From contig PLZL01000147.1 in the NCBI GenBank assembly GCA_003152145.1, positions 1 to 21,397 on the forward strand: a stretch of 21,397 nt of DNA, in the 5' to 3' direction. This stretch comes from Limisphaerales bacterium. Its GTDB lineage: Bacteria > Verrucomicrobiota > Verrucomicrobiae > Limisphaerales > UBA11358. Each line of letters begins with the position of its first letter. Position 1 is the first letter of the stretch. The notes below the pieces were generated by a model. That model ran no database searches. It was not told the DNA's origin and saw only the letters and a program-made list of their open reading frames with translations. Shown in pieces: positions 4,993 to 18,622 of the stretch. Made by a program: the position numbers and the translations under genes.

Positions 4993-5037
4993 TCCTCAAT
5001 AGAATCTGAAGAGCCACGGCAATGATGTCCGGAATGA

Positions 5038-5077
5038 CGGAATTAGACGGATTTAGGCGGAAACAGGCGGAAACAAA
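5038..5077 (+). repeat. Four 10-base units beginning CGG, helically phased
   Basis: Units start at 5038, 5048, 5058 and 5068: CGGAATTAGA, CGGATTTAGG, CGGAAACAGG, CGGAAACAAA. An exact 10-base period places each CGG on the same face of the helix. It lies between the tRNA and the first inverted-repeat candidates, so it may be host or element DNA. Confidence 0.6.
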
Positions 5078-5108
5078 GGGCTTTGAGAGGGTTTTCAGCA
5101 GGAAAGAA

Positions 5109-5146
5109 TGTCCGGTTTTCTTCAGCGTGTCCGGTTTCCAAGTTCC
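5109..5146 (+). repeat. Left terminal inverted repeat candidate
   Basis: TGTCCGG at 5109-5115 and again at 5128-5134, followed by TTCCAAGTTCC at 5136-5146. The reverse complement of the right end reads TGTCCGG, ten bases, then TTCCAAGTTCC (18482 back to 18455). Same order and orientation but different spacing. Confidence 0.55.
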
Positions 5147-5185
5147 AAACACAAGCTTCTGATAATCAACGGTTGGAACTCAAAG

Positions 5186-5201
5186 CCGGACAAAATCACC
5201 G
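5186..5201 (+). repeat. 16-base end repeat, left copy
   Basis: CCGGACAAAATCACCG matches 18476-18491 (CCGGACAAAATCATCG) at 15 of 16 positions in direct orientation. Both copies are preceded by TTGGAAC within 7-10 bases. Probably a transposase-binding site shared by the two ends. Confidence 0.6.
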
Positions 5202-5290
5202 TGAATCAAAGGGGGTGGAACGTAGAACCTGCCTCAAGCCAGTTTTCAGGCCGCGCCGCGCCGATGGAATCATGGCTACAAACGCTCGTT

Positions 5291-5332
5291 GATGCCGGTT
5301 TAAGCCGCCAACGATGGCCGGTTAAGCCGCCA
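5291..5332 (+). repeat. Tandem pair of 20-base sites (GGTTTAAGCC type)
   Basis: The unit GATG(G)CCGGTT(T)AAGCCGCCA occurs at 5291-5310 and 5313-5332, offset 22 bases (about two helical turns). The core GGTTTAAGCC has an exact inverted copy at 18359-18368 and the variant CCGGTTAAGCCG a direct copy at 18381-18392. Candidate internal transposase or regulator sites. Confidence 0.6.
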
Positions 5333-5394
5333 TTAACCTCGCACAAAATCGCGCCGCCACTGCCAAGGTGACGCCGGCCGCCGCTGGAAATTGT

Positions 5395-5419
5395 CGGGCC
5401 GGACAGCGACGCCGGCCCG
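5395..5419. repeat. GC-rich perfect hairpin in the left end
   Basis: CGGGCCGG (5395-5402) pairs with CCGGCCCG (5412-5419) over a 9-base loop. There is no T run on either side, so it is not a standard terminator. The left arm overlaps one CCGGACA heptamer. Confidence 0.5.
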
Positions 5420-5549
5420 TTGATGTTGAAAAATATTCCATCGGTTTGCCGTCGCCACCGCCGAAAGATTTCGGTCGTGGGTTGCCGGATTGTTGCTGGG
5501 GAGTTGGCTCCATTTAATGGAACTAACGGAATTCTGAACCCCGAAATCC

Positions 5550-5574
5550 GTTCAGTCCAGAATTTGGACTGAAC
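5550..5574 (-). terminator. 10-bp inverted repeat, possible end of the leftward cargo operon
   Basis: GTTCAGTCCA (5550-5559) and TGGACTGAAC (5565-5574) pair perfectly over a 5-base loop, 68 bases beyond the stop of the gene at 5642. Only a short T stretch follows on the minus strand, so it could instead be a protein-binding palindrome. Confidence 0.35.
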
Positions 5575-5641
5575 TTGAAGGTTTTGCCGCCAGTCTGGTC
5601 CTCGCAGAGAAAGCCATTGATGGCGCGAATCTTAAAATCTG

Positions 5642-6187
5642 TTATTTCCCGCAGCAACGTTTGTATTTCTTCCCGCTCCCACACGGACAGGGATCGTTTC
5701 TTCCGGCTTTAGGGACGCTTCCCGGCGGCTTTGGTGCTGCGCCAGTAAAATCAATTCGTTGTAGTGACGGACAACGAAAACTAAAGCATGTTTTGTTGTC
5801 AAAATTTGTTACCGCAAAATCCCCACGGATGATTATGTCCATTCCCACCAAAACATCGTCACCGCGTAATTTGCCCCGCGTCACTCTCGCAGCGCTAAAA
5901 CCCACGCCGTTCGGAAGCCTAATGTTAATCAGATAAACGTCGGTATTATATTCTCCATCCACGCCGTGTGCTTTTGTCATTCCAATGGGCTTCAATCCGC
6001 ACTCGAAAATGACCTTTTCGGTAATAACTGTTCCCGTTGCTCCAGTATCCCAGATTGCTTGATATGGTCTTAAGGGGGGAGGGTAATGCGTTGTGTTTGG
6101 GTCAAAAGCTGCGGCGATTTCCACCGTCGTCCGCAACACAGGCAAAAGTCCGCTCGCCTGCATTGTGAACGCATGTCCTTGTTGCAT
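5642..6187 (-). CDS. Retropepsin-like aspartyl protease domain fused to C-terminal SEC-C zinc motif
   Basis: 181 residues. Residues ~18-145 resemble the single-domain retropepsin-like fold: the active-site signature [10 protein letters not shown] has Asp at residue 47, and a later [11 protein letters not shown] matches the second conserved 'GMD' loop. The C-terminus is a SEC-C motif ([15 protein letters not shown]), a Zn-binding tail first known from SecA and found on many unrelated proteins. Such proteases act as homodimers, so proteolysis is possible but no substrate is suggested. The ATG follows directly after the stop codon of the upstream gene (TAAATG), implying translational coupling with the DUF5678-like partner. 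It lies inside the mobile element near its left end and is best seen as cargo. Fold calls are by motif. Confidence 0.75.
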
Positions 6188-6502
6188 TTAAGCAAAAGAC
6201 ACCCGTGAATGAAACGACTGGGTGTAGTTTTCACTACCCGGTTCGCATTTCTGAACTAGGAATGTTCCAAGCGTGTGTTCTTTACAAGTTTCGCTCAAAG
6301 CCTCAAGCTCGCTCTCGTAAGCCCCGATCACCTTGCAGTCCTTGATGACAATAAATTTCCCGCCGTATTTCTTGACCAATTCCCCTTGGTGGTCGAGATA
6401 ATACTCAAATTCTTTTTCAAGTGGGCTTGCCACAAATTTGCCTTTCATTTCCGATGACACCATGCGCCCGTTTGCGTTCAATTTCAACCAGGCCGCATCC
6501 AC
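6188..6502 (-). CDS. DUF5678-like small protein
   Basis: 104 residues from ATG 6502. Alternative starts at Met14 (6463) and Met19 are possible because the first residues look less conserved. The core runs EYYLDHQGELVKKYGGKF, then VIKDCKVIGAYESELEAL, and GTFLVQKC before a C-terminal HSRVSF. This is the pattern I associate with DUF5678 proteins, a short alpha/beta fold of unknown role. It lies immediately upstream of, and is probably coupled to, the retropepsin-like/SEC-C gene. I believe this two-gene arrangement occurs in other bacteria but cannot verify it here. No enzymatic residues are recognised. Confidence 0.7.
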   Translation of the reverse strand: MDAAWLKLNANGRMVSSEMKGKFVASPLEKEFEYYLDHQGELVKKYGGKFIVIKDCKVIGAYESELEALSETCKEHTLGTFLVQKCEPGSENYTQSFHSRVSFA

Positions 6503-6672
6503 AACATTCCCATAATAGGCACAAAATCAACCGCCGCGCCACTCCTTTTTAGGGGTGGTATGTGGGCAGATTGTGCCCTTAAATTTAGCAAAGCGGGAGA
6601 AAAAGTCAAACTTCCTCCACGATTTCTTGGCCAGATGTTGACTTGGACTGCGGCGGGAAAGTTCCGTTCAAC

Positions 6673-6702
6673 AAAAAACGCCGGCCAACCACTGGCCGGC
6701 GT
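6673..6702 (-). terminator. Rho-independent terminator of the repressor operon
   Basis: On the minus strand, ACGCCGGCC (6702-6694), a 7-base loop and GGCCGGCGT (6686-6678) form a perfect 9-bp stem followed directly by a run of T (complement of the A run at 6673-6678). It lies about 20 bases beyond the stop of the gene at 6723 and closes the leftward repressor unit before the cargo pair. The rest of 6503-6722 holds no gene that I can support. Confidence 0.85.
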
Positions 6703-6722
6703 GTGGTGGATCAGCGGTGCAT

Positions 6723-7139
6723 TTAAGACGCCGGCGGCGTGCCGGAATCGCACTGGCCAGAGAATTCACTGGGGAGATTTATTATTGGAATTGGGTTTAG
6801 CCCGGGGAGTAGTCCTGATTTTGCCGCTTCCAACGCTCTGTTTGCAACGGCAATGAGATTATTGCAACCAATGGTCGAATTTCGGATCGCTGTATTACAT
6901 TGGTCGCTTTTGAAACTCATCAACGACTGCTGTTTCGACAGAAACTGCCGGAGTTCATCGTTGACGACAGTTTGGAACAACTCTGAATTAAAATTCTCCC
7001 CGGATTTGATCCAACTGGCCATTACAAGGCTGATTTCGTTAACGGAGGAAAGTTGCTGCAACGCCAAATTGTTTAGACTGATGAGCAAGGAGACGGTGTT
7101 TTCCAATTTGATGACGCGTGCATTTTCTTCAGGTGTCAT
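6723..7139 (-). CDS. Hypothetical helical protein, last gene of the repressor operon
   Basis: 138 residues, not recognised. The N-terminal half is rich in Leu, Asn, Ser and Gln with heptad-like spacing (VIKLENTVSLLISLNNLALQ), suggesting a helical or coiled-coil protein. The last ~30 residues are Pro/Gly-rich (LLPGLNPIPIINLPSEF). No signal peptide, transmembrane helix or metal motif. It is 60 bases downstream of the 7200-7979 gene and directly upstream of a strong terminator, so it is probably transcribed with the repressor. Its position suggests an accessory or maintenance role in the quiescent state, which is inference only. Confidence 0.6.
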   Translation of the reverse strand: MTPEENARVIKLENTVSLLISLNNLALQQLSSVNEISLVMASWIKSGENFNSELFQTVVNDELRQFLSKQQSLMSFKSDQCNTAIRNSTIGCNNLIAVANRALEAAKSGLLPGLNPIPIINLPSEFSGQCDSGTPPAS

Positions 7140-7199
7140 AAGTCAGATTTTCGTTTTGCGCCGGCCAGCGCGAGCCAGTCGGCGCGGTTGTGGTTTGGT

Positions 7200-7979
7200 T
7201 CAGGCCGCTTGGGGAATTTTTTCAGGAGGCAAAACACGCGCGGTCGTCTTGGTTTTGTGAGCGGCTTTCCACGCCCTGTCGAAGGCCAACTCCAAACTGG
7301 ACTTGATAATAAACGATGCAGCAAATGCACTATTGTCATTGCGGACGCTGATGTCGGTGCCTTGCAGATCAATCAAGTGCGCCAGCGCATTGACGCCGTT
7401 TTCGATATTGTTTGACACACGGCAGGGGCCTTGGACTTCGTTGGCCGTTCCTGTCATCTCGTCGCGCCAGGCGGAAAAATCACGCCGGAAATTTTCCGCC
7501 AAAAGCCGCGGCAGTTCAAGATTTCCGGCTTGGAATAATACCATCTCCAAATCCTCCCAGCCGGCAAAACAATCCGTGCAAAACTTTATCTGGCGGGCTT
7601 GCATAACGGCCAGCGCAACGGCCGCCGACGCGCATTTCTCCAGCTCATCACACGCGGCCAGCGCCTGGTCGCGCGTATCCTCCGGCACTTCATTCAGCCT
7701 GATGATTGCGGGCGGATTTTCAGCGGGCTTGCTGCGTCCGATTTTGTCCCTGACGGCGTTTTCTATCCACTGCCGCACGCTGATACCCGCGCGCACAACG
7801 TCGCGCAGCATGGCTTGGTATGCGGCCAATGGAATTTCAAAATCTGCCGCCGGCTCGCCCTTGACTTCACTGATGAGGATGCGGACATTCTCCGGCTGAT
7901 GGTTACGGGAGGTTTTGACTTGCGGCGACGTGCGTGCCGCGCTACGGTGTTGAAGGACTCGATTTGTTGGTGTTTTCAT
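7200..7979 (-). CDS. Hypothetical protein, middle gene of the repressor operon
   Basis: 259 residues, not recognised. The first ~30 residues are basic and low in hydrophobics. Around 45-80, FEIPLAAYQAMLRDVVRAG then ISVRQWIENAVRDKIG resembles a small helical DNA-binding or dimerisation segment like those of ribbon-helix-helix proteins, but this is weak. The remainder is helical with conserved-looking Trp and Cys (CTDCFAGWEDLEM). The preceding bases include GAAAGG about six bases from the ATG, one of the few plausible Shine-Dalgarno sites here. It lies between the repressor gene (57-base gap) and the 6723-7139 gene, all leftward. Confidence 0.65.
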   Translation of the reverse strand: MKTPTNRVLQHRSAARTSPQVKTSRNHQPENVRILISEVKGEPAADFEIPLAAYQAMLRDVVRAGISVRQWIENAVRDKIGRSKPAENPPAIIRLNEVPEDTRDQALAACDELEKCASAAVALAVMQARQIKFCTDCFAGWEDLEMVLFQAGNLELPRLLAENFRRDFSAWRDEMTGTANEVQGPCRVSNNIENGVNALAHLIDLQGTDISVRNDNSAFAASFIIKSSLELAFDRAWKAAHKTKTTARVLPPEKIPQAA

Positions 7980-8036
7980 AGATGCCTTTCATTTGGGTCT
8001 GCGCTCTGGCGGTGTTCACGCACAGCCAGGGCATTT

Positions 8037-8858
8037 TTATTTTTCCGGCAGCTTTGGTTTCCAATACTGAAGCCGGATGGCAATATCCGCCGAAGGATTG
8101 CTTTCACCAGAAAGCCACTGATTCACCGCCTGGCGAGTCACCTTGAATTCCCGCGCCAGCGCGGCCTTTGCTCCACGCGGCACGGTGACTTTTTTCAGGC
8201 GCGCAATCAGCCCCTTCAGATCACGGATTTCATTTTGCACGCCGGCAGTATGCGAAAGCAGCTCTGCATTGTCAAGCACAGATTTACTTGAAATTGACAT
8301 GGTTTCCGATTTCTCTTCCGGCAGTAAAGGGTTCGCAAACAAGTCACTGGCTTTTTTCCGAAATTTAACGTCCCTCCGCATTGTCCGAAGCTGCTTTTTC
8401 ATCAAGCCCTCCAGTGCAACGGCCCATTTTCGCCGCTCGAAAATGGGAACTGACTCATCGTTCAGAATGTTCGGAATCAAATCCAGGGCTTTTCTTTGTC
8501 TGCTAAATTTGTGGCTAGCCTCGCTTTGCAAGACGCGCATTTTAGGCATGATGTGTTTATCGTAAACCTCGCTGAATAAGGCGCGGGGCCGCACTAGATT
8601 GATGAAATCCGAATCGTCAAATACGTTTGGAAATTTGGGGGAATTAACTTGCGTTGCCAGCCACAGCGGACTTACGTGATAACGCTTGGAAATTGCTCGA
8701 AAGACTTCATAGGGCAACGGCGCACGCCCCGCTTCATAGCTGGCAATGCGCTCACTCCCAAAGCCGACCGCCACAGCAAATTTTGATCGTGGAATTTGAA
8801 GCGTTTCTCGAAACGCCCGCAGCCTAGCTCCGATCAACTTTTCACGTTCAGCTACCAT
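8037..8858 (-). CDS. Element repressor with Cro/CI-type HTH at both ends
   Basis: 273 residues. Residues ~8-65 form an HTH_3-type domain (GARLRAFRETLQIPRSKFA, GSERIASYEAGR, then HVSPLWLA). A second HTH lies near the C-terminus (AALAREFKVTRQAVNQWLSG), separated by ~150 mainly charged helical residues. Divergent orientation from the 57-residue Cro/Ner-like gene, with palindromes in the shared 75-base promoter region, is the classic lysogeny-type switch of Mu and lambdoid elements. The protein most likely represses the rightward operon and possibly its own promoter. Mu c and lambda CI do not, to my knowledge, have two HTHs in this layout. A TAGAAT -10-like hexamer (complement of 8868-8873) lies nine bases upstream of the ATG. 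Confidence 0.8.
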   Translation of the reverse strand: MVAEREKLIGARLRAFRETLQIPRSKFAVAVGFGSERIASYEAGRAPLPYEVFRAISKRYHVSPLWLATQVNSPKFPNVFDDSDFINLVRPRALFSEVYDKHIMPKMRVLQSEASHKFSRQRKALDLIPNILNDESVPIFERRKWAVALEGLMKKQLRTMRRDVKFRKKASDLFANPLLPEEKSETMSISSKSVLDNAELLSHTAGVQNEIRDLKGLIARLKKVTVPRGAKAALAREFKVTRQAVNQWLSGESNPSADIAIRLQYWKPKLPEK

Positions 8859-8897
8859 GCGCCGATAATTCTAGCACAATACGGGGGAAAAATAAGT

Positions 8898-8929
8898 CTT
8901 TACAATATTCCGTAAAGTGGTAAATTACC
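8898..8929 (+). promoter_or_regulatory. Rightward promoter with overlapping operator palindromes
   Basis: TTTACA (8899-8904), a 16-base spacer and TAAATT (8921-8926) form a promoter ending seven bases before the ATG at 8934. Two palindromes lie exactly over it: CTTTAC-N8-GTAAAG (8898-8917) across the -35, and GGTAA-A-TTACC (8919-8929) across the -10. Both contain GTAAA-type half-sites, so a repressor bound here would block RNA polymerase directly. Confidence 0.6.
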
Positions 8930-8933
8930 GAAA

Positions 8934-9107
8934 ATGGCTGCCAAATGCCAACGACGACAGTATCGGCGACGCCCCGGACTCACGGAGGCGGCGCATGAAC
9001 TTTCGGTGACGTATTCACACCTTCGTCGCGTCATCAAGGGCGAGCGCAAATCACCGCTGCTCGCTCTTTACCGAGCAAGGAAGCGCAACCGCCGCAACGC
9101 ACCATAA
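8934..9107 (+). CDS. Small Cro/Ner-like DNA-binding protein
   Basis: 57 residues, strongly basic. It opens MAAKCQRRQYRRRPGLTEAA, then HELSVTYSHLRRVIKGERKS reads as a helix-turn-helix (helix, turn at SVTY, recognition helix SHLRRVIKG) close to the Cro/Ner size class. It is the first gene of the rightward operon, directly behind the operator-promoter and divergent from the repressor. This is the position of ner in Mu, where Ner down-regulates early transcription and the repressor gene. The ATG may be the first base or close to the first base of the mRNA. Function is inferred from context plus the HTH. Confidence 0.65.
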   Translation: MAAKCQRRQYRRRPGLTEAAHELSVTYSHLRRVIKGERKSPLLALYRARKRNRRNAP

Positions 9108-9135
9108 ACCGAAATCAAAACAACACGATAAAACC

Positions 9136-9663
9136 ATGAATCCAAACTTAGAGTCCGTTCAAATTGCCCTGGATAACGTCAGCAAGATTGCCGAGCGCCG
9201 ACAGGGACTGGAGGCCGAACAGCAGGAATTGCAGACCAAGATCCAAACGTTGACGGCAACCGTTGCCGGTGGCGATGCCAAATCCGTCAACGCCCTGAAT
9301 ATCGCCAAGGCCCGCGCCGAAGTGTTGCCCGACGATCTGTCGTCTCTGTCACTGGAATTCAGCGGAGCCATCACCACGTTGAGCAATTCCCTGCTGCCGA
9401 TATCGCCAATGGTTGCGAAGGCTCACGGAAAAGAATTCCGGCGGATTGAGGCAACCGTCCAGGCTTTTCTGGAAACGCTAATTACTGATGGCTATTTGAT
9501 CGAAAAGTTCGCGCTAGAGATCACCAACAACGCCAAGACCGTCAGAGCTTTGGAATTTTTGAATGCGCGGTTTTCGTCTCTGCAAATCAACAAACTTGTT
9601 GATGCGAAATCGGTGATTTCGCGCGCTGAAGATGCCATTGCCAGGCTTGAACATGTTGAATAA
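9136..9663 (+). CDS. Coiled-coil hypothetical protein in the early operon
   Basis: 175 residues, not recognised. Residues ~5-45 (QIALDNVSKIAERRQGLEAE and following) form a heptad-rich coiled coil. The rest is helical with few aromatic residues. No signal, membrane or catalytic motif. It lies between the Cro/Ner-like gene and the gpI-like gene. Size and coiled-coil content are close to Mu Gam (a DNA-end protector), but I see no Gam sequence similarity, so that is only one possibility. Twenty-eight bases separate it from the preceding stop, with no Shine-Dalgarno. Followed by a hairpin-containing gap. Confidence 0.6.
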   Translation: MNPNLESVQIALDNVSKIAERRQGLEAEQQELQTKIQTLTATVAGGDAKSVNALNIAKARAEVLPDDLSSLSLEFSGAITTLSNSLLPISPMVAKAHGKEFRRIEATVQAFLETLITDGYLIEKFALEITNNAKTVRALEFLNARFSSLQINKLVDAKSVISRAEDAIARLEHVE

Positions 9664-9714
9664 CGCAACCATTTTAGCGGGCGTTTTGCCCATTATGTTC
9701 GGTCACGTCATGCG

Positions 9715-9746
9715 CTGCTCCGGGGTTGAATTTTGCTCCGGAGCAG
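9715..9746 (+). terminator. 9-bp hairpin between coiled-coil and gpI-like genes (partial terminator or attenuator)
   Basis: CTGCTCCGG (9715-9723) pairs perfectly with CCGGAGCAG (9738-9746) over a 14-base loop, followed by CTCTTTCT. The T tract is weak, so it may be a partial terminator setting lower expression of downstream genes, or an RNA processing site. Confidence 0.4.
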
Positions 9747-9779
9747 ACCTCTTTCTAAATTTCAATTTCCATAAAAATT

Positions 9780-10883
9780 ATGCTTCCCCTTGCGCTTGAA
9801 CAGGCCACACCCCACACCGCGCTCGCCACAGCCATCTCCGGTATATCGGCCGATGGGCCGCTACAGCCGGTCGATGCACCCGATGGTGATTACAACATTC
9901 AGTGGATGCCGCCCGGAGAGCAGGATATCATGTGCTGGGTGTCTGGCCAGCCGCGCCGATTGAAATTCACCGTCAAGGCGAAGCATGCCGAACTATTCAA
10001 CGCGCAATTGCAAAAAATGATTTCCCGCGCGCAGGCCGGCGACGGCGACAGGCCGTTCACGGATTACAACCACGAAGACCGCGCAGCTTCCAGCCGGCCC
10101 AAACGCATCGAATGGGGTGGTAACGATCCCAAGACGGGCGGCATCCGGCTCATTGGCCCCTGGACGGGCAAGGCCAAGTCGGCGATCCTCGACGATGAAT
10201 TTGACCGCTTCAGTCCGCAATGGGATTTCGACGAGAACACCGGCGAGCCGGTTGGAATCAATGAGAATCTTGGAGGCCTCGTAAATAAACCCGCGTTCAA
10301 ATCCATAGCCAAGGTGCAAGCCAATGATGCGAGTGGCGCGGTGCAAAATGATCCCGCCACCGAACCGCCGGGAAGTTTTTTCAATCTCGTAATGACCCGC
10401 GCCGCGCAGAAAAAAATCCCGGTTGAGCGGGCGGTGCAGGAAATTTCGCGCGAGCACCCCACCCTTGCCGAACAATATGCCTTCATGATGCGCGGGGTGA
10501 CCTCAGGTAGCACGCCGTTTAAGCCATCCGTTGAGATGGCCAAGGCATACGCCATGCGGGGTTCAACAACAGTGCTGGCGTTGAAGAATCATCCGTTCCT
10601 CGTGCAAGCCAGAGCTCTTGCCACGGCAAAAGGTTTCAGTGAGCAGGAAGCGCAAATTATTCTCGCGGGCAAAAATTATCCGCTGTATCAGCAATTCTGC
10701 GCGAGCCTTCATCAGGCCGAGAAAAGACGCCTTACCGCCGCTGCCGCTGATTCCGGGCAGATGGATTTCGTGAAGGAAGTCCAGACCGCGCAAGCAAACG
10801 GAACATCATTTGATGAAGCCGTTAATTTCGTTGCCTCTAGCAGGCCACACCTCCTTGATGAGTATCGGCGTTCGTTTCGCTAA
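9780..10883 (+). CDS. Mu gpI-like prohead protease/scaffold protein
   Basis: 367 residues. The central part carries the pattern of Mu I-like proteins: TDYNHED at residues 94-100, GGIRLIGPWTGKA, then FSPQWDFDENTG (FSP at 144-146) and GGLVNKPAF at 165-173. In Mu the full-length I protein is the maturation protease and its shorter internal product Z is the scaffold during head assembly. The C-terminal ~190 residues are helical, as a scaffold part would be (RAVQEISREHPTLAEQ, RALATAKGFSEQEAQ). Its presence is odd because no portal, major capsid or terminase gene is visible. It follows a hairpin-containing 116-base gap without Shine-Dalgarno. Whether it still has a virion role or has been reused is unknown. 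Confidence 0.75.
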   Translation: MLPLALEQATPHTALATAISGISADGPLQPVDAPDGDYNIQWMPPGEQDIMCWVSGQPRRLKFTVKAKHAELFNAQLQKMISRAQAGDGDRPFTDYNHEDRAASSRPKRIEWGGNDPKTGGIRLIGPWTGKAKSAILDDEFDRFSPQWDFDENTGEPVGINENLGGLVNKPAFKSIAKVQANDASGAVQNDPATEPPGSFFNLVMTRAAQKKIPVERAVQEISREHPTLAEQYAFMMRGVTSGSTPFKPSVEMAKAYAMRGSTTVLALKNHPFLVQARALATAKGFSEQEAQIILAGKNYPLYQQFCASLHQAEKRRLTAAAADSGQMDFVKEVQTAQANGTSFDEAVNFVASSRPHLLDEYRRSFR

Positions 10884-10899
10884 AAGTATGAATGATGCC

Positions 10900-11085
10900 T
10901 CAAACATTTCGCGCGGCGGTTTTGTGCTCGACGGCGTTGGTCATCTTCATAGTCAGAGCATTGTTGTGCCGCGTCGCAGCGGATCGGCTGCCAGTTTCTT
11001 CCGGTCCGCCGCCAATTTTTCCAAGGGCTTTTTCCAGCACATCGGAGGATTGAGCTGGTTTCGCAAAGCGGAGGGCCTGATCCAT
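10900..11085 (-). CDS. Possible 61-residue antisense small protein
   Basis: A minus-strand frame from ATG 11085 with GGAG eight bases upstream: MDQALRFAKPAQSSDVLEKA, then LGKIGGGPEETGSRS, ending TAARNV. Its composition looks more protein-like than the plus-strand frames in the same 237-base gap between the gpI-like gene and the gene at 11121. It has no known relatives that I recognise and runs against the surrounding operon. Low confidence; this gap could simply be noncoding. Confidence 0.25.
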   Translation of the reverse strand: MDQALRFAKPAQSSDVLEKALGKIGGGPEETGSRSAATRHNNALTMKMTNAVEHKTAARNV

Positions 11086-11120
11086 CCAGGCTCTCCGCCC
11101 TTTTAATCCCAACTGAAGCC

Positions 11121-11744
11121 ATGAAAGAAATCCTCCCCGCTTCAAAATCAATCCCAGCTTGGCAGATGGAACGAGCAAGGAAAATCCACCGGGCCTGCCT
11201 CTGTGTCCAGGCCGCTGCCGCGCGTGGCGAAAAAATTTCCAAATACATCCGGCGCACGGCACGCCGCTACAATGGACGCAAACTCAAATCCGATTCGGAG
11301 CGCCTGTTGCAACTTTCCGCGCAGACACTTCGCCGACATTTTGGAGTTTGGAAACGCGGCGGCCAGGTTGCCGCCGCTTTGCTGCCGCGATACACGCCGC
11401 GCCGCTCGGTTTTCACCGCGCCCATTCTGATCCGCTTCGTGAATTTTATCACCAGCCGCCCGCAGCCATCCATGCAGGAGGCATGGCGGGAGTTCGCCAA
11501 GCGCGGCGGCAATTTCGGACCGGGCCGGCGGGCGGGCAAACCATTGAAAATAACATACGGCCAGCTTAGGTATTCGTTCCCCGCGGCAAATTTTTACCTG
11601 TTGCGCGCGCAACAGAAGGCGATGGAAACGGCGCAAGCAAATGCGGATGCGCTACAGCAGAAGTTCATCGCCGAAATCCGCAAACGATTTCCAGCGCGGC
11701 CGCCACGCCGTCGCGTGAAACGAGAAACTGATTTTCAAATCTGA
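11121..11744 (+). CDS. Basic hypothetical protein with HTH-like N-terminal half
   Basis: 207 residues, very rich in Arg/Lys/Ala. Residues ~12-85 (ARKIHRACLCVQAAAARGEK, YIRRTARRYNG, LLQLSAQTLRRHFGVWKRGG) read as a series of short helices like the multi-HTH N-termini of transposases and recombinases. The C-terminal third is a charged helix ending RPPRRRVKRETDF. Probably nucleic-acid-binding; no catalytic triad. The stop overlaps the next start (TGATG, one-base overlap), showing an operon with 11744-12187. It could be an accessory end-binding or target protein of the transposon, which is inference from composition and position only. Confidence 0.55.
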   Translation: MKEILPASKSIPAWQMERARKIHRACLCVQAAAARGEKISKYIRRTARRYNGRKLKSDSERLLQLSAQTLRRHFGVWKRGGQVAAALLPRYTPRRSVFTAPILIRFVNFITSRPQPSMQEAWREFAKRGGNFGPGRRAGKPLKITYGQLRYSFPAANFYLLRAQQKAMETAQANADALQQKFIAEIRKRFPARPPRRRVKRETDFQI

Positions 11745-12187
11745 TGATCAACAATTCCACAACGAACCCGACGCGCCCAATGGGCGACCTCAACGCCGTA
11801 ATGCGCGACCTGGACTTGGACGCGGATAAAGTTCGCGCGCTGCTCGACGAAGGGAAGCTCATCGGTTTCAACATCTCGACTAACAAATCCGCCCGCGTCT
11901 GTTTGCGTCTTTTGACCAAAAGCGTCGAGCACTACCAGCAGACTGGCGGAAACAAAACGCTGGTGTTGGAATGGCCGCAAATTTTCCGGCTGGTTGTGAA
12001 GCACGACAAACTTTTTGTGCGGGGCTTGGAGATTCAGCGGGCTTTGAACTGTGACGAAGGCCACGTCGCAAGCCTGATTTTGGCGGGCTATTTTGTTTTG
12101 GTGAAGAAATCGCACCCCGGGCACGGCGGATCACCAATCGTTACGCGCGGGAGCTTCGAGGCGTTTCTGAAGGGGAGGCTGCTATGA
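11744..12187 (+). CDS. Hypothetical protein, excisionase/HTH-like
   Basis: 147 residues. LNAVMRDLDLDADKVRALLDEGKLIGFNI near the N-terminus resembles the opening of MerR/excisionase-type winged-helix proteins, where a short helix is followed by 'LLxxGxLxGF'. A second similar pattern (FVRGLEIQRALNCDEGHVASLILAGYF) lies at about residues 88-120. This suggests two small DNA-binding domains. Mu-class elements do not need an excisionase, so a regulator or end-binding factor is equally likely. Start overlaps the upstream stop by one base and its stop overlaps the next ATG (ATGA). Confidence 0.55.
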   Translation: MINNSTTNPTRPMGDLNAVMRDLDLDADKVRALLDEGKLIGFNISTNKSARVCLRLLTKSVEHYQQTGGNKTLVLEWPQIFRLVVKHDKLFVRGLEIQRALNCDEGHVASLILAGYFVLVKKSHPGHGGSPIVTRGSFEAFLKGRLL

Positions 12188-12405
12188 AAACGACTTGCGG
12201 CAAAATGCACACATTTGTTCCGTGGCGATTTGGCCAGGACGCGCGAACAGAGTGTTTGCCGCGCCGACAGGCGCAGTCCGGTCGCCGACGCACCACGCGG
12301 GCGATTAAAGGGGTCTTAATGGCATTGTGGCGCGTGTGTTTTGCGGACGATGAAGCCCCGGAAACCCCATTTCTTAATTTCGCCGTCCAACCCTCAAGAA
12401 TCTGA
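12184..12405 (+). CDS. Small basic hypothetical protein
   Basis: 73 residues beginning MKTTCGKMHTFVPW, rich in Arg with several Cys and Trp. It is supported mainly by a four-base ATGA overlap with the preceding stop and by filling the gap up to the tape-measure-like gene, whose ATG follows three bases after its stop. No motif recognised. It could be a chance frame. Confidence 0.4.
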   Translation: MKTTCGKMHTFVPWRFGQDARTECLPRRQAQSGRRRTTRAIKGVLMALWRVCFADDEAPETPFLNFAVQPSRI

Positions 12406-12408
12406 CCT

Positions 12409-13920
12409 ATGGCCGCCGACAATCAATCCCAGCTCGAGATCCTGATCAAGACCATCGCGGACACGACGGGATTCACCCTCACCCGCGAACAGGCCGCCGC
12501 CACCCAGCAGGCCCTGGGCAAATACGCGGAATCCACCGCCGATCTCGGCAAGAAAACCGAGGCCGCCGGCTTGATCCAGGAGAAATCCACCGCGTATGTG
12601 CGCGCGCAATTTGTCCTCTTTACCGAACTAAACAAAATTGTTCCCGGCCTTGGCATGGCCCTGCACGCCGCGTTCGCCGGGCCACTCGGGCCGATCATCC
12701 TGCTGGCCGCCGGCATCGCCGAGGTCACCTCGCTCATCAAGGCCCAGAACGCGGCACTGGACGAGCAGGCCAAGGCCGGCGCCAATGCCGATTTCCTCGA
12801 CGCCATCCAGTCGCGCCTCGCTGTCTTCACCAACGCCGCTGCCTCCGCGCAGCAGTTCGCCGACGGCCTGAAGAACATCGAAGACAATTCCAAGTCCGCC
12901 AAAACTGAACTGGAAGGCCAGATCAAGACATTGCAGGCCCTCGAACGCGCCCAGGCGGCACTCACCAGCGCGCAAAAGGAACTGGAGATCGCGCGGATTC
13001 AGCAGGACGAGGCCACGGGCAAAATCACGCCCGAGCAGGCCGCCGAACGGCGCGCCAAGACGGAAAAAGATTATCTCGAAAAATCTCAAAAAGACAAAGA
13101 AGCCGCGCAGCACAAGGACTTGGCAACGCGCCAGGCGGCGGCGGACAAGGCGAGGCAAAGCCAAACCGGGTTTGATTACGCCGCGACCGGGGCCACCGCC
13201 CGTGTGACCGCCGAAGAGGCGCACGCGGTCGCTGTAAAAGTTGATCCAAAAGAACAGGCGGAAAAGGAAAAGGCCGCCCAAGCGGAACTGGACAAGGCAA
13301 ATGCCACGGTTGAATCGCAGAAGAAATGGAACATGGCCGAGCGGGGCATCGGCATGACCACACCAGCAATGGACGCCCAGCAAATCGCCAACTTGCAAGC
13401 GGTTGCCGACAAGGCAGCGGCAAAATTGAGCGCGCTCCGCGAACAGGATAAAGAATTCGCCGCCACGCAAACGCCTCAAGCCGCCGCGAAGCTGCAACAC
13501 GACAAGAAGGCCGCTGAACGGGCCGAAAAACGCGCGGAGGAAAATGCGGCGTTCGCGGCGGAGCAACAGCGGCAGATTGACCAGGAAAAAGCCACGCAGT
13601 CAGGGACGCGCCCCATCGAAGAGCAGACGATGCAGATCAAGGAGAAGACGGTTGAGAGTCAGGAAACAACCCGACAGACGAAACAAGCCAAGGCGGACGT
13701 TGGCGCTATCGAGAGCTTTGAGCGGTCTGCAAATCCTTCGCCTGAATTAATCAGCAAAGCCGCGCAGGCAATTGCCGAATGGCAATCAGTCCCGGCCGCA
13801 ATTCAGGAACTGGTCGCCGCACTTGCCGGTCTTGACGCCAAACAATTAAAGGCTGACATGGCCGATGCAAAACGGAAAATCGCGGAAATCCAATCCCAAC
13901 TCTCCCATCACGGCCCTTAG
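12409..13920 (+). CDS. Tape-measure-like long coiled-coil protein
   Basis: 503 residues. The N-terminal 70 residues are helical. Residues 77-110 are a hydrophobic Gly/Ala/Leu/Ile-rich segment (IVPGLGMALHAAFAGPLGPI then ILLAAGIAEVTSLI), as in phage tape-measure proteins. Residues ~130-440 are almost continuous Ala/Glu/Lys/Gln-rich coiled coil (KEKAAQAELDKANATV, KKAAERAEKRAEENAAFAAE). It is short for a tape measure (usually 600-2000 residues), and no tail tube, chaperone or baseplate genes accompany it. It sits six bases upstream of the transposase gene. It could be a remnant tail protein or an unrelated membrane-linked coiled-coil protein. Confidence 0.5.
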   Translation: MAADNQSQLEILIKTIADTTGFTLTREQAAATQQALGKYAESTADLGKKTEAAGLIQEKSTAYVRAQFVLFTELNKIVPGLGMALHAAFAGPLGPIILLAAGIAEVTSLIKAQNAALDEQAKAGANADFLDAIQSRLAVFTNAAASAQQFADGLKNIEDNSKSAKTELEGQIKTLQALERAQAALTSAQKELEIARIQQDEATGKITPEQAAERRAKTEKDYLEKSQKDKEAAQHKDLATRQAAADKARQSQTGFDYAATGATARVTAEEAHAVAVKVDPKEQAEKEKAAQAELDKANATVESQKKWNMAERGIGMTTPAMDAQQIANLQAVADKAAAKLSALREQDKEFAATQTPQAAAKLQHDKKAAERAEKRAEENAAFAAEQQRQIDQEKATQSGTRPIEEQTMQIKEKTVESQETTRQTKQAKADVGAIESFERSANPSPELISKAAQAIAEWQSVPAAIQELVAALAGLDAKQLKADMADAKRKIAEIQSQLSHHGP

Positions 13921-13926
13921 TGACCC

Positions 13927-16731
13927 ATGTCCGACACGCTTACATCTTATCCGGCGAATTCCGATGGCGTGAAGGCTGCCTTCACGGCGTCACAAATCGC
14001 CGCCGCGCTGGGCAGGACGCCGCAGGCGGTTCGCCGACAGTTGCGCGATGTGAGTCCGGCTGCTGTGCGGATCGTCGTCGGCAATGAGGCTGCCGCGTGG
14101 ACGGTAGAGCAATTGCCGGGGCCGATGCGTGAGCGCCTGGCTGCCGAGGCCGCGCTGCAACACTGCCGCACGATTGAAGCGTTGCTTTCGATGCCGCGCC
14201 AGCAATGGCAGCCGACGATTCCGCTGGACAAAGTTTCTGATGCCAACATTCAAGCGGCGACAAAACTCCGCGACGCGCTTAAGCCGTGGTTGATTCAGCA
14301 GCACGATCCGAATTTGTCCACGTCAGAACTTGAAAGCCGGGGCTTGGCGGATTATCAGCGGGTTTTGGGAAATCGGATCACTGCGCGTTACTGGCGCGAA
14401 TTATTCTCTCGCACTTTGCGCCGTGACAGCGGCGCCGAGGATTGGAACCGGCTGGAAATTTATTCGCCGGATCGGCTGAAGCGAAAGGAAGCGCCGGCCG
14501 CTGCCGTATCGGAAGCTCTCGCCGCTGATTTTGCCGAGATTGAAAGTTTCATCGCCGGATGCACCAACCCGCACGCGCCAAACAAAGCTGAATGCGCCGG
14601 CGTGTGGACACTCGCGCTGGAAAAATTCACGGCGCTGGTGAATGCCGGCGCGCCGGAAAAATCAGCCGCGCGCGGCGTGCGTCAATTCCTTTTTGCACGC
14701 GCCTCATTTTTGGCCGCGTCGCGCGATGCGTTGCTGAAAGCGTTCAATCGCAAACTTGAAGCATTGAACAAGGCCAACGGCGACGTGAAGGCGCTGCGCG
14801 ACGGACGCGAAGCGAATGGGATGCCTTTTGTATTGCCGGATGATGACCGGGATTTGTTGATTGCTTCCATTATGCAGGGGCGTTACGGCAAGCGCGGCGA
14901 CATCGCGCCAGCCTGGCGCGAATTGTTGCGCAAAGGATTCTCGCCGGCCGTGGTGGACCGCTACGCCGGACGCGCGCAGAACAAATCCCATGTGCCGGCG
15001 TCTGTAATGGAGTCCGTAGCGTCGGAAGCGGAAATCTTGACGGTGATGCATCGAGGCCCGCGCGCCTTCGATTCAATCAAGGGCCACGTCACGCGCAGCT
15101 ATGACGGCATTTCCTCTTTGCAGTGCATCTCCGGAGACGATTTCACGCTCAACACCTATTTTTATGTGCCGGATGGCAAGGGCTGGTTTCAACTTACGCG
15201 CGGCCAGGTGATTCTCTTCATTGATTTCCGGTCGCTCCGAATTTTGGGCTGGGCATTGGAGCCGCGCAAATCGTATTCATCGCTGACAATCCGCAGCCTT
15301 TGCACTCACGTCTTTGGCGAATTCGGTGTGCCGGAGATTTTGTATTTCGAGCGCGGACTGTGGAAAAGCGCTACTCTGTTGAAAGGCAAAACCGATCCGT
15401 TTGACTTCACCGAGATCAGCCAGGGCTTGCGCGAGTTTGGCATCAAGTTCATTCATGCCATCCGTCCGCGCACAAAGGCCGTTGAGCGCGTCGGCGGAAT
15501 GTTTCAGGACATCGCGGAGGCCGAGCCGGGTTATTGCGGCCGTGATGAACGCCGCGACGCGCCGGAATCGTTGCGCAAACAAATGGCTGAAGTCGAAGCG
15601 CGGAAAGTTCATCCGGGAAAATACTTTTATTCGCTGGACCAATGGAACCGCCGCCTTGGACAACTTGTGAATCAATACAATGCCGAAGCGCAGCAAGGCA
15701 ACATTCTCGCCGGGTTGTCACCTGAACAGGCTTTCGAGGCTCACGTGAACCAAGACGATCCACCGATGCAATTCAACGCTGCCATGCGTTACTTGCTCGC
15801 CAACGATAAGCGCTTGTCGCATGTCACGCTCAACGGCGTCACGATCCAGATCGGCAAACAGAAATTCAATTATCGCGGGAAGGAAATCGCGCACCTGGTT
15901 GGCCGCGAAGTCCTGGCATGGTTTGACCCGGAAAATACTGAATCCATCGTTGTCACCAATTCCGACCGGACGAATCCGATTTGCGTGGCACGGTCAGAAA
16001 ATCCGAGCGCGCTGGAAAGTTTGGTTGCGCCGGAATCCGGCACGCTGGGCCGCGAGCTGGCCCGGATCGAAGGCCACGCGTCGCACATGAGAACTCGCTT
16101 CAACGTCGTCAAGGCAAAATTCCCACTGCCTCAACGCCAATTGCTGGCTGATGCCAAAGGCGACTTGCTCGGCTATCAAATCAATACCCGCAAATCGGCC
16201 TTTGCCGCCCGCACGGATGAAAGCCGGCGGCGCACGACCGCAAACAAAAACAAGGCTCGGCGGCTGGATATTCCTTCAGTGATGGTTGGCGATGATGAAC
16301 AAAGCCGCCGAGCGCTGGAATTGCTCGGTGATGCACCGCGCCGGACGCGAGGCGAAGTTGAAATCGGCCCGGAAAAATCAGAGGCATTGCCAGCAAAGTC
16401 GCTCATCCAAAAAGACGGACAATTCATCTATCACTTGAAGCCGTCCGGCGATGACAGGATTGAGTATGTGGATTATCTCATTACCCAGTTGACCAAATTT
16501 CGCAAGGCCGGCAAATCCTTCGGCCAGAATCTTTCCGGCGCAATTTCCTTTGGCGTCACGCGCAAAATCATACAGTCACAAATCGGCGGCGACATTTACG
16601 CTTCCGAAAACTTTGAATCCGTTTGCGCGCATCTGAAGGAGAAAATTGACGCGACGATCTTGGGCAAACACAACACCGCCAAAGGCGCTCCGAACTACCA
16701 CGAATTCGCCGAGGCACAGGAGACACGATGA
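13927..16731 (+). CDS. MuA-like DDE transposase, enlarged
   Basis: 934 residues (Mu A has 663). The N-terminus (AFTASQIAAALGRTPQAVRRQLR, then NEAAAWTVEQLP) matches the winged Mu-type HTH that binds the enhancer. Helical end-binding domains follow. The RNase-H-like core begins near residue 395: SGDDFTLNTY (D404), a beta-strand QVILFIDFRSLRILGW, FGVPEILYFERGLW and RPRTKAVERVGGMFQ (E520). By alignment to Mu A D269-D336-E392 the triad would be D404-E475-E520, with Glu at the second position. A Mu-type C-terminal beta-barrel (ITQIGKQKF-like VTIQIGKQKFNYRG) and a long extra C-terminal region follow; the end includes a helical part (LITQLTKFRKAGK). It performs strand transfer at the element ends with the MuB-like ATPase, whose ATG overlaps this stop by four bases. 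Confidence 0.88.
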   Translation: MSDTLTSYPANSDGVKAAFTASQIAAALGRTPQAVRRQLRDVSPAAVRIVVGNEAAAWTVEQLPGPMRERLAAEAALQHCRTIEALLSMPRQQWQPTIPLDKVSDANIQAATKLRDALKPWLIQQHDPNLSTSELESRGLADYQRVLGNRITARYWRELFSRTLRRDSGAEDWNRLEIYSPDRLKRKEAPAAAVSEALAADFAEIESFIAGCTNPHAPNKAECAGVWTLALEKFTALVNAGAPEKSAARGVRQFLFARASFLAASRDALLKAFNRKLEALNKANGDVKALRDGREANGMPFVLPDDDRDLLIASIMQGRYGKRGDIAPAWRELLRKGFSPAVVDRYAGRAQNKSHVPASVMESVASEAEILTVMHRGPRAFDSIKGHVTRSYDGISSLQCISGDDFTLNTYFYVPDGKGWFQLTRGQVILFIDFRSLRILGWALEPRKSYSSLTIRSLCTHVFGEFGVPEILYFERGLWKSATLLKGKTDPFDFTEISQGLREFGIKFIHAIRPRTKAVERVGGMFQDIAEAEPGYCGRDERRDAPESLRKQMAEVEARKVHPGKYFYSLDQWNRRLGQLVNQYNAEAQQGNILAGLSPEQAFEAHVNQDDPPMQFNAAMRYLLANDKRLSHVTLNGVTIQIGKQKFNYRGKEIAHLVGREVLAWFDPENTESIVVTNSDRTNPICVARSENPSALESLVAPESGTLGRELARIEGHASHMRTRFNVVKAKFPLPQRQLLADAKGDLLGYQINTRKSAFAARTDESRRRTTANKNKARRLDIPSVMVGDDEQSRRALELLGDAPRRTRGEVEIGPEKSEALPAKSLIQKDGQFIYHLKPSGDDRIEYVDYLITQLTKFRKAGKSFGQNLSGAISFGVTRKIIQSQIGGDIYASENFESVCAHLKEKIDATILGKHNTAKGAPNYHEFAEAQETR

Positions 16732-18365
16732 GCACGCGCCACGAAAAGACAGCCGGCCCACTTTCGCAAGAACGCTACATGAGCAGCATCGAGTTTGCCG
16801 AATTGCGCGGCATCAGCGGCGTGGCGGTGTCGGCGCGGGCCGCAGTGTTGATCCCAGCGATAAAGCGAAACCTGATTTGGTTTATCCAGGGCTTGTCACT
16901 GGCTGAAGGTGGATTGAAGCACGTCGCCAGGGAGTTGGTCGAAATGTTTCCCGACCGACTCGGCACGCCGAAAATGCACAAGACGGGCATCAAGCCTGAA
17001 AAGACTTATCCGGGCGAAGTGGTTTCTTCCGTTGAATTGGACTTGGACGTGCGCGATGGGCTTTCCGATGATCCAGCAAAACCGAGAAAGGGATCGGAAT
17101 TGATCCAACGATGCCGTGCCGCCGCGTTGTCGCGCCACGAAAACCCGGCGCGCAATCAATACGTGTCGCAGTGGCGACGGCTTCAATCGTTGGAACAATT
17201 TCTTGTTGATCTGTGCATCAATCCGCGAATTCATTTCGCCGCGCCGGGCGAGCAAGTTGACGTTTCGGATATTGAATCCGAAAAAGCTATTGAGCAAAAT
17301 CCGGAGCTTTCAAAAGACGATTTCAAAGCCGCGAACCTGATTTATTTCCGCGACATCATCGGTGCGGTGTTTGAATACCAGGCGCGGCACGAAGCCAAAA
17401 TTAGGCAGTCTTTCCAACTCACTTCAATTGGCAAAACGATTTGGGAGACGTTGGATTATGCACTGGCCAGCCGTGGCATGGTGGTTTTGGACGGTTTGGA
17501 GGGGCGCGGTAAAACCGAAGCCGTGAAAGCCTGGTGCGCATTGCACGGAGGCACGGCCCGTTTTGTCAGCCTGAAGGGCATTACCAACAAAACCACAGCG
17601 TTTCGTGAAATTGCCAGGGCGCTCGGCATCGCGTCCAGTTACGCGCGCACCTCGCTGGAAATGCAGGCGCGGATCGAGGACGTGCTGAAGCGTTCAAAGC
17701 TGCTCTTGGTTTTAGATGAGGCACACTTCCTTTTCAACCAAAGCCGTCGCATGTATTCGCGTCCAGAGTTAATTGATTGGCTGGACACCTCTCTCGCCAA
17801 CTGTGGAATTGGCTGCGCCTTGATTACAACCCCCCAATTTATAGTTTGCATGACACGCGCGGCGGATCAGGTGGAATGGAACTACCGCCAGTTTCGCCGC
17901 CGCGTCAAACGCTGGGAGAAGTTGCCGGCGTCCAACACGGAAGATGACATCAAAGCAGTTGCGCGGAATGTTTTTCCGAAGGCAGAGGCGCGCCTGATTT
18001 CACAAATCGCCGGTTACGCGCTCTTGAGCAAACGCGATCTGTCGGCGGTTGGCGACGTGGCCAGCGAAGTGCGCGCCATGCTCGGCACAGATGATTTGAG
18101 CAAAGCAACCTTGGATCAAGTCCACCGGGCGATTTACGATTTCCTTTTGCCCAGCGACAAGACTTTTTTGGAAGGCATGGAGGCCGCGCGCCAGAGTGGC
18201 AGGAAATCATTTCGCAAGTCAGCGCCTGCATTGCCTGAAGAAACGTTGCAAGAGCCGGTGCAGCCGCCGCAGGAAGAAAGACAGAGTGCCAGGCGTGGCG
18301 TCGTGCCGATTGCCTCTGCATCGCGCCAGCGCGCCGAGAATCCAGCCGCATTAATTGTGGCTTAA
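16728..18365 (+). CDS. MuB-like AAA+ target-selection ATPase, enlarged
   Basis: 545 residues (Mu B has 312). Walker A GLEGRGKT is at residues 256-263, Walker B LLVLDEAH at 326-333 (D330, E331) and a sensor-1 region ALITTPQF follows. This places the ATPase core at ~230-430. The first ~190 residues are an extra region with an HTH-like start (FAELRGISGVAVSARAAVLI) and a helical middle (QWRRLQSLEQFLVDLC), not present in Mu B. The last ~60 residues are a low-complexity Pro/Glu/Arg tail. MuB-type ATPases form ATP-dependent filaments on DNA, choose the target and stimulate the transposase; TnsC of Tn7-like elements is related. Coupled to the A gene by ATGA overlap. The stop codon lies within an end-type repeat. 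Confidence 0.87.
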   Translation: MSTRHEKTAGPLSQERYMSSIEFAELRGISGVAVSARAAVLIPAIKRNLIWFIQGLSLAEGGLKHVARELVEMFPDRLGTPKMHKTGIKPEKTYPGEVVSSVELDLDVRDGLSDDPAKPRKGSELIQRCRAAALSRHENPARNQYVSQWRRLQSLEQFLVDLCINPRIHFAAPGEQVDVSDIESEKAIEQNPELSKDDFKAANLIYFRDIIGAVFEYQARHEAKIRQSFQLTSIGKTIWETLDYALASRGMVVLDGLEGRGKTEAVKAWCALHGGTARFVSLKGITNKTTAFREIARALGIASSYARTSLEMQARIEDVLKRSKLLLVLDEAHFLFNQSRRMYSRPELIDWLDTSLANCGIGCALITTPQFIVCMTRAADQVEWNYRQFRRRVKRWEKLPASNTEDDIKAVARNVFPKAEARLISQIAGYALLSKRDLSAVGDVASEVRAMLGTDDLSKATLDQVHRAIYDFLLPSDKTFLEGMEAARQSGRKSFRKSAPALPEETLQEPVQPPQEERQSARRGVVPIASASRQRAENPAALIVA

Positions 18366-18394
18366 ACCAGCTTTTAATACCCGGTTAAGCCGGG
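18357..18394. repeat. Right-end pair of GGTTTAAGCC-type sites
   Basis: GGCTTAAACC (18359-18368) is the exact reverse complement of the left-end core at 5297-5306. It overlaps the stop codon of the MuB-like gene. CCCGGTTAAGCCGGG (18380-18394) carries the direct variant seen at 5317-5330 and is itself a short palindrome. Confidence 0.55.
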
Positions 18395-18454
18395 GTTGAA
18401 TCTACGGTTTTACACCCGCCAAAAGGGTGCGCTATTTCCTTGCTTGCGATTTTC

Positions 18455-18491
18455 GGAACTTGGAACAGACTCAATCCGGACAAAATCATCG
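18455..18491 (+). repeat. Right terminal inverted repeat candidate and right copy of the 16-base end repeat
   Basis: GGAACTTGGAA (18455-18465) is the inverse of the left TTCCAAGTTCC. CCGGACAAAATCATCG (18476-18491) is the direct counterpart of 5186-5201, and its first seven bases CCGGACA (ending at 18482) are the inverse of the left TGTCCGG. Confidence 0.55.
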
Positions 18492-18622
18492 CGGCTTTAC
18501 AAATCAATGGTTTTATCAATTTTCAAGCTCCCAAAACTGCCGAGTCATAACAGAAAGTCATAAGATCGCCTGAAATCGGCCTTATCGCGGAGCGCAAAAG
18601 TTGTCACGGAAGTTGCCGCAAT

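Follow-up and report, generated by a model that had tools for sequence, protein, structure and literature searches.

The contig PLZL01000147.1 of a Limisphaerales bacterium (Verrucomicrobiota; GenBank assembly GCA_003152145.1), analyzed over its full 21,397 bp (henceforth called the window), carries an element of 13,495 bp (5007–18501) that very probably is a transposon of the MuA/MuB type, from a family that for the most part inserts specifically at tRNA genes. The element has inverted TG...CA ends, is flanked on both sides by AATC, and ends in two adjacent genes, A and B, encoding a MuA-like DDE-type transposase and a MuB-like AAA+ ATPase. Its left end lies 14 bp beyond the 3′ end of its target gene, an intact tRNA-Val(gac) (4918–4992, plus strand, called with ARAGORN), and the insertion point is 39 bp from the T-arm box GGTTCGA of that gene (4968–4974, plus strand). 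The parts, i.e., a MuA/MuB pair and a repressor, are ordinary; the new combination is that of Mu-type placement at T-arms with isolated virion genes as cargo. In the following, relative genomes and their elements carry G-labels and individual loci L-labels.

Spacing from the T-arm

Throughout the family, 19 elements were found with one end 38–41 bp from the start of the T-arm motif GGTTCRA of a tRNA or tmRNA gene, the spacing being 39 bp in 15, 38 bp in two, and 41 bp in two (one of the latter, G803, measures 39 bp in an alternative register). As a background, the 38 contigs contain 62,581 TG dinucleotides, 56 of which (element ends included) stood at this spacing. Since the tRNA was the starting point from which many left ends were initially spotted, the safer figure is that of the 20 elements mapped at both ends, in which the other end (and often a duplication, too) confirms the element. 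Fourteen of these, the window included, were at a T-arm and six were not, while for the further five of the 19 the tRNA-side end was the only one mapped. Three elements were left out of the 19: G658 and G669, which have a tRNA near the left side but lack a canonical end, and G449, in which the end 14 bp from the tRNA is degenerate.

The targets comprised Val, Arg, Leu, and Gly tRNAs as well as one tmRNA, with the contig of G736 holding only the 3′ part of its tRNA. The left end faced the tRNA in 17 elements and the right end in two (G667, G004c). Because a spacing of 39 bp was measured both in G600, the tRNA of which was called without CCA, and in G060, which is inserted at the tmRNA, the ruler seems to start from the T-arm and not from the 3′ end.

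Near ftsK, tRNA-Val(gac) was present in 10 of the 30 relative loci fetched, one of which was cut off; the other nine had no end motif 8–23 nt past the tRNA (best score 3.4 bits vs. 20.9 bits for the window end). These nine are comparable loci without an element end at the tRNA, although they do not define an empty site to the base. An empty-site search via the neighbor gene of G001 returned 12 loci, none with a tRNA, and was uninformative. The elements of the window and of G803 are both located at a tRNA-Val near ftsK, and the FtsK of the window is 79% identical to that of G560, which is of the family of G803. G001 and G002 are members of this family as well, and the host of the window very likely belongs to it, too. 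On the tree of A, the tRNA label required five changes, compared to a mean of 5.6 after shuffling, and 168 of 500 shuffles were as low. Homing is thus not a property of one clade, and a single-origin account is unsupported. At the level of sequence, targeting of tRNA genes is well supported.

Element ends and target-site duplication

Element ends were found by comparing the sequence 3′ of tRNAs, which revealed a shared motif starting with TG, followed by pairing with the region downstream of B. For further ends, a position weight matrix was used that had been built from ten end pairs and six left ends. The terminal inverted repeats of the window element span 5007–5032 (TGAAGAGCCACGGCAATGATGTCCGG, plus strand) and 18476–18501 (minus strand); read inward from the outer ends, they are TGAAGAGCCACGGCAATGATGTCCGG (from 5007) and, inverted, TGTAAAGCCGCGATGATTTTGTCCGG (from 18501), with 21 of 30 positions matching. 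Two adjacent registers were tied in this pairing and the one giving TG...CA was taken, as was done for tied neighboring registers in relatives. The copies of the 4-bp target-site duplication AATC are located at 5003–5006 and 18502–18505 (both plus strand).

Further inward, TGTCCGGTTT repeats occur at 5109 and 5128 (5109–5137, plus strand), with inverted copies at 5186 and 5399, and by analogy with Mu these are probable transposase-binding sites. An earlier note on this DNA, made from the letters alone, had placed the mirrored end sites at TGTCCGG (5109) and CCGGACA (18482). These motifs exist, but as inner repeats: they were rejected as ends since TG and CA fall outside them once the ends of several elements are aligned, which places the ends at 5007 and 18501.

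One of the 20 elements with both ends mapped, G660, stops at a contig end, so that 19 could be checked for a duplication. The direct repeat was 4 bp in 12 of these, 5 bp in three (one ambiguous), and missing in four (G379, G736, G833, G849). The ambiguous case is G803, where the inverted repeat favors position 2667 (no repeat) and the 5-bp repeat requires 2669. As the repeat formed part of the end-picking score for G667, G689, and G849b, a stricter count gave 11 or 12 of 16; the level expected by chance is about 1 in 256 per element. The 5-bp duplication anticipated in the earlier note is not present in the window and was seen in only three of the 19 elements checked.

Target selection

TniQ (PF06527) scored over the cut-off in none of 29 genomes, a search which a very divergent TniQ could escape, and the one sub-threshold match (G849) was on a contig other than that of the element. 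When 17 elements were scanned with their own tRNA for a guide match, interior matches were 9–12 bases long and no longer than those obtained with other tRNAs. Rfam models at the gathering threshold matched none of seven loci (G502, G721, G379, G603, G123, G251, G833; the locus covered for G833 does not reach its left end). A dedicated selector gene was also considered and rejected, with p3 being present in 16, p4 in 22, and cc in nine of the 38 loci and none being universal.

The feature found to correlate with homing is in B itself, the first ~26 residues of which are a conserved tail (consensus S-[SN]-T-R-x-A...L-x-Q-E-R-[YF]-x-S-S-P-E-F). The tail profile was built from 24 of 29 aligned B proteins, after its absence in the others had been noticed, and scored 28–53 bits in 32 of the 38 loci (45.8 bits in the window). 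It failed in G379, G603, G502, G833, and G123 as well as in L005, the contig of which ends within B. At a score of at least 20 bits, the tail was detected in 102 of the 120 B homologues listed, and several of the tail-less homologues listed look as if their start had been called too late. Among the elements with both ends mapped, 14 of 15 tail-positive ones were at a T-arm (the exception being G721), compared to none of the five tail-negative ones (G379, G502, G833, G689, G849b; p ~4e-4, kinship ignored). A wider table gave 20 of 21 vs. 0 of 7 (p 6.8e-6, kinship ignored), counting G449 within the 20 despite its degenerate end, and G603 and G123 within the seven although their left ends are not firmly mapped. 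Elements outside both tables were G251, which has the tail but neither a visible tRNA nor a mapped left end; G697, G529, and G738b, which have the tail but no mapped end; G683, G847, G429, and G643, which lack both the tail and mapped ends; and G611 and G703, in which B was not found. To the right of B, G683 has a tRNA-Glu, the 5′ side of which points to the element. At the time G689 and G849b were retrieved, nothing was known of their tail or tRNA, and the tail-positive elements of the same batch (G697, G529, G738b) are those without a mapped end.

In the tree of A, the tail-positive and tRNA-homing G406 is placed inside a well-supported clade of tail-negative elements without a tRNA (G379, G603, G123), with a support of 99/53 as sister to G123, and G502 and G833 form a separate tail-negative pair. 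From these placements, there seem to have been two or more joint changes of tail and homing. We infer that the tail may play a role in targeting.

Family and gene plan

Homologues of A numbered 282 at E ≤ 1e-3 (7,995 candidates scored), and those of B that passed the threshold numbered 325; the few organism names among the 120 A matches listed were Verrucomicrobiota plus one Pseudomonadales. Across overlapping samples of Verrucomicrobiota genomes, A matched in 17 of 387 and 21 of 384 genomes with weak matches counted, and in 27 of 320 and 7 of 49 at E ≤ 1e-40. Phage and plasmid records searched with A gave zero matches. A scan of IMG/VR with A alone returned nothing, and with the alignment it returned one contig, identical to the G658 element over 6,560 bases. 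The three distinct family members found within one genome (G004, contigs C112, C293, and C311) may be mentioned here.

Gene layout was compared in 38 loci including the window, which correspond to 37 distinct elements as L005 is the same element as G658; 12 further loci were inspected later, one of which extends G833. The family gene order is repressor, rightward genes, A, B, and end, with a homologous leftward repressor in 17 of the 38 loci, window included. The earlier note had advised looking for the same order in independent insertions; this plan and the right end were found again in relatives with an A 26–70% identical to that of the window and at many insertion sites, defining a compact Mu-like family with A and B at the right end. 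This recurrence speaks against a lone deletion derivative, and such an origin of the window element is unlikely. The same note had considered that close relatives might show the full head and tail gene set; besides the shared plan, no head-and-tail or other morphogenesis block was seen in the flanks of G001, the sole ones annotated gene by gene.

The right end was located 112–142 bp past the B stop codon in 24 of the 30 elements with a proposed right end (window included), and in the remaining ones at 624–681 bp (four elements), 434 bp (G803), and 2,302 bp (G060). Two of the proposed ends are weak, those of G251 (6.9 bits) and G603 (8.5 bits), with the end of G603 being preferred by position over a higher-scoring one; without these two, the count is 22 of 28. 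The four elements with the right end at 624–681 bp have an extra gene of 165–189 amino acids after B, and the post-B gene of G001 is GemA-like below the cut-off (PF06252, 20.6 vs. 27 bits, E 8.8e-4). Elements with both ends mapped are 8–16 kb in size. Not firmly mapped were the right ends of G017, G600, G415, and G523 and the left ends of G603, G123, and G251. Among the A matches listed, stops were counted only in G449, G736, and the marginal match G385.

When searched against the PDB, the profile of A retrieved MuA (4fcy) first (E 2.5e-9; TnsB at 1.2e-4) and that of B retrieved MuB (8xvb) first (E 2.2e-7; TnsC at 1.9e-5), whereas the fold of A was equally near to ShCAST TnsB and MuA (tied). 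At the sequence level, the pair is thus nearest to MuA/MuB. The family shares with Mu the adjacent genes for a DDE-type transposase and an AAA+ partner, a divergent repressor, TG...CA ends with repeated inner sites, and the GemA-like post-B gene of G001, which remains below the Pfam cut-off. Mu itself is the classic case of near-random insertion. Mapped members of the family, by contrast, are mostly at tRNA T-arms, mostly have a 4-bp and not a 5-bp duplication, and have A and B at the right end with virion genes left of A and no morphogenesis or packaging block recognized.

Cargo slot between repressor and A

For 32 of the 37 distinct loci, the contig contained at least 2.9 kb of sequence upstream of A, though in some cases less than the complete element, and one or more virion genes were recognized between the repressor side and A in 17 of these, which is a lower bound as only part of the open reading frames (ORFs) was scanned. 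A protease only was found in the window, G002, G449, and G736 (in the last below the Pfam cut-off and by homology to that of the window), and a capsid in G664, G800, G849, G667, G669, and G003b. G001 has a fusion of prohead protease and HK97-type capsid (L001:5246-7192), G658 and G660 have portal and capsid, with a separate prohead protease in G658, and G379 and G889 have a Mu-type portal. In G123, a Mu-type portal is fused to a gpI-like protease (L068:7599-9626) and accompanied by a short tape measure, and G603 has a short tape measure of 753 amino acids; a weak tape-measure match was obtained for G170. When 77 proteins were tallied by PHROG family, those for head, portal, protease, and tape measure were the most frequent, with one labelled DNA repair and some unknown, and no terminase, tube, or baseplate family was among the 25 listed of 82. 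Two terminase families, Terminase_6C and TerL_ATPase, were searched for in 29 genomes, other terminase families being outside this search, and had no match on element contigs; on non-element contigs, Terminase_6C was present in five genomes, and TerL_ATPase was found in none of the 29.

In the tRNA-homing element G415, the virion-gene slot is taken by the anti-phage pair IetA (E 3.4e-121) and IetS (E 4.6e-291) at L066:5780-9241. Of the window proteins scanned with PADLOC, only one gave a match, at its SEC-C end. The composition of the slot suggests that it may serve in conflict with phages, and we infer the role of the cargo from this. A precedent for interference with virion assembly is Tab, a prophage tail-assembly blocker (PMC10884400); the likeness is in the idea of defence by hindering virion assembly only, and Tab differs in being prophage-encoded.

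Genes of the window element and its flanks

Rightward genes start with a small ORF of 57 amino acids (8934–9107, plus strand), which is in one cluster (c7) with rightward genes of four relatives, and an ORF restricted to the window element among the 38 loci (9136–9663, plus strand). The Mu gpI-like head maturation protease occupies the cargo slot (9780–10883, plus strand; PF10123 7.3e-8, 32.8 bits vs. a cut-off of 25.2; phrog_328 1.2e-7) and is followed by p3 (11121–11744, plus strand), a small protein resembling part of the MuA-family profile (phrog_310 positions 101–221, E 1.5e-5) and found in 16 of the 38 loci. The small protein p4 (11744–12187, plus strand; profile matches in 22 of the 38 loci) is perhaps HTH/excisionase-like, its copy in G001 matching HTH_17 below the cut-off (22.0 vs. 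27 bits), and p5 (12184–12405, plus strand) is common only to the window and G800 among the 38 loci. A protein of 503 amino acids is encoded 5′ of A (12409–13920, plus strand) and has relatives in nine of the 38 loci, window included. Its labelling as tape measure in the earlier note is not supported: no Pfam match was obtained up to E 1, and PHROG matches were at E 0.18 or worse. A 495-amino-acid gene between A and B in G449 (L049:17042-18529) is a relative of it; the gene has changed place between the window and G449.

A (13927–16731, plus strand; phrog_310 4.8e-34) has the conserved acids D404/D405, E475, and E520, and B (16728–18365, plus strand; phrog_296 1.3e-22) starts with the ~26-residue tail. 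The second catalytic acid of A (residue 475, window 15349–15351) is Glu in 31 of 31 aligned members and, per the alignment, Asp in MuA. Divergent from the rightward genes, a repressor with two helix-turn-helix (HTH) domains is encoded at 8037–8858 (minus strand; PF01381 1.9e-11, PF13560 5.2e-10). The repressor, the gpI-like gene, the MuA- and MuB-like genes, and the position of A and B at the end of the rightward run had all been called in the earlier note and were confirmed here.

To the left of the repressor, on the minus strand, the element has an ORF of 259 amino acids without significant match (7200–7979), an ORF without significant match (6723–7139), an ORF without match (6484–6753), a DUF5678 protein (6188–6502; PF18929 23.4 bits, cut-off 23.2), and an aspartyl-protease-like protein with a SEC-C motif (5642–6187; PF02810 2.3e-10; PF13650 24.7 bits, cut-off 24.3). 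No tyrosine integrase matched among the scanned proteins of the window element (ORFs 7136–7372 and 8934–9107 being outside the scan).

The left neighbors of the element are host-like (ftsK, a PKD-domain gene, a glycosyl hydrolase 28 gene, and the tRNA-Val). To its right, two adjacent HTH genes (19132–19808), one MqsA-like (PF15731 1.3e-8) and the second resembling a plasmid antitoxin (phrog_1381 3e-25), are a possible toxin-antitoxin remnant. The same side contains a direct repeat of 42 bp (19462–19503 and 20415–20456, 90% identity, 953 bp apart).

Proposed mechanism and alternative explanations

In the mechanism proposed, A would link both TG...CA ends of the element to the target at 39 bp from the GGTTCRA of a T-arm, mostly with a stagger of 4 bp; in the window, the insertion lies 14 bp past the mature 3′ end and leaves the tRNA intact. 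The T-arm DNA would be what is read, B would deliver A to this site, and its N-terminal tail would be needed. The slot between repressor and A would hold phage-related cargo, i.e., isolated virion genes or, in one relative, IetAS, which may interfere with invading phages or borrow from a helper. A more far-reaching version is speculative, and we regard it as rather doubtful in its entirety: a Mu-clade system would home to tRNA and tmRNA genes by protein only, without TniQ or guide RNA, the tail of ~26 residues would confer specificity by recognizing T-arm DNA or by recruiting a factor there, with a 39-bp ruler, and the cargo would be a rotating store of virion genes serving as assembly poisons against phages.

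The earlier note had offered the choice between a non-phage transposon and a phage satellite, which is still the right pair of choices, although it missed the insertion at the T-arm, the main feature. As a satellite, the element would depend on a helper, with protease, capsid, and portal building or redirecting capsids and terminase and tails coming from the helper, and we consider this a serious possibility that nonetheless falls short of being the expected one. It would account for portal and capsid in G658 and G660 (with prohead protease also in G658), for element contigs without a match to the two terminase families in 29 genomes, and for sizes of 8–16 kb. On the other hand, a single virion gene was recognized in many elements (G002, G449, G736, and the window; G379 and G889; G603), too little for a particle, IetAS stands in place of virion genes in one, and no packaging gene was recognized; by Terminase_6C, 24 of 29 genomes showed no resident phage of that kind, although infecting phages could still help. 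Capsid-forming phage-inducible chromosomal islands (cf-PICI) and phage-inducible chromosomal island-like elements (PLE) are similarly small and encode head proteins or remodel them while lacking a complete set of virion genes; the family differs from them in its Mu-type transposition, its often single virion gene, and the lack of a recognized packaging gene. These satellites use a site-specific recombinase. Origin by decay or deletion from a Mu-like prophage, with a few structural genes retained, is very unlikely: A, B, and the sub-cut-off GemA-like gene of G001 do recall Mu and the virion genes are of phage origin, but the virion genes lie left of A and not right of B, plan and right end recur across relatives with such divergent A proteins, stops in A are restricted to the three matches named above, and the G001 flanks are devoid of a morphogenesis block.

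Tyrosine recombination, or shared descent of one insertion, would explain the association with tRNAs in another way and is extremely improbable. The 3′ ends of tRNA genes are the usual targets of tyrosine integrases, and the window and G803 elements are both at the tRNA-Val near ftsK. Short duplications and inverted TG...CA ends are, however, the mark of a DDE transposase; no integrase matched among the scanned proteins, different tRNAs and a tmRNA are targeted in both orientations, and nine relatives have the tRNA-Val near ftsK without an element end. It is also improbable, if less strikingly so, that the element is a Tn7-like transposon with TnsB/TnsC and a TniQ/TnsD selector, as are the tRNA-homing CRISPR-associated transposons (CASTs). 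The family has in common with Tn7-like elements and CASTs (I-B2, I-D, V-K) the fixed distance 3′ of an intact tRNA, the AAA+ regulator, and the related transposase fold, with A as near to ShCAST TnsB as to MuA, but it differs in that sequence profiles favor MuA and MuB, no TniQ over the cut-off and no spacer match were found, and several tRNA families plus a tmRNA are served. Tn7-like elements are known to insert downstream of tRNAs (PMC8649781), and the type I-D CAST inserts 30–33 nt past tRNA-Leu via TnsD (PMC10293859), as opposed to 14 bp in the window. The study of the I-D element treats the Mu clade as separate and the Tn7 clade as characterized by TniQ/TnsD (PMC10293859).

Implications

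Within the literature searched, i.e., titles and the starts of abstracts with most subscription papers outside, no report of a tRNA-homing Mu-type element was found, and the tRNA-homing transposons of the same superfamily found there rely on TniQ/TnsD or CRISPR guides. If the reading as a MuA/MuB-type transposon homing to T-arms is true, the family would be an example of how specificity is acquired by a MuB-type ATPase and would provide a simple A plus B system for directing insertions to a universal safe site. Isolated virion genes as regular transposon cargo, in the position held by IetAS in one relative, would in addition open to testing the new idea that virion parts act as weapons against phages or as satellite tools.

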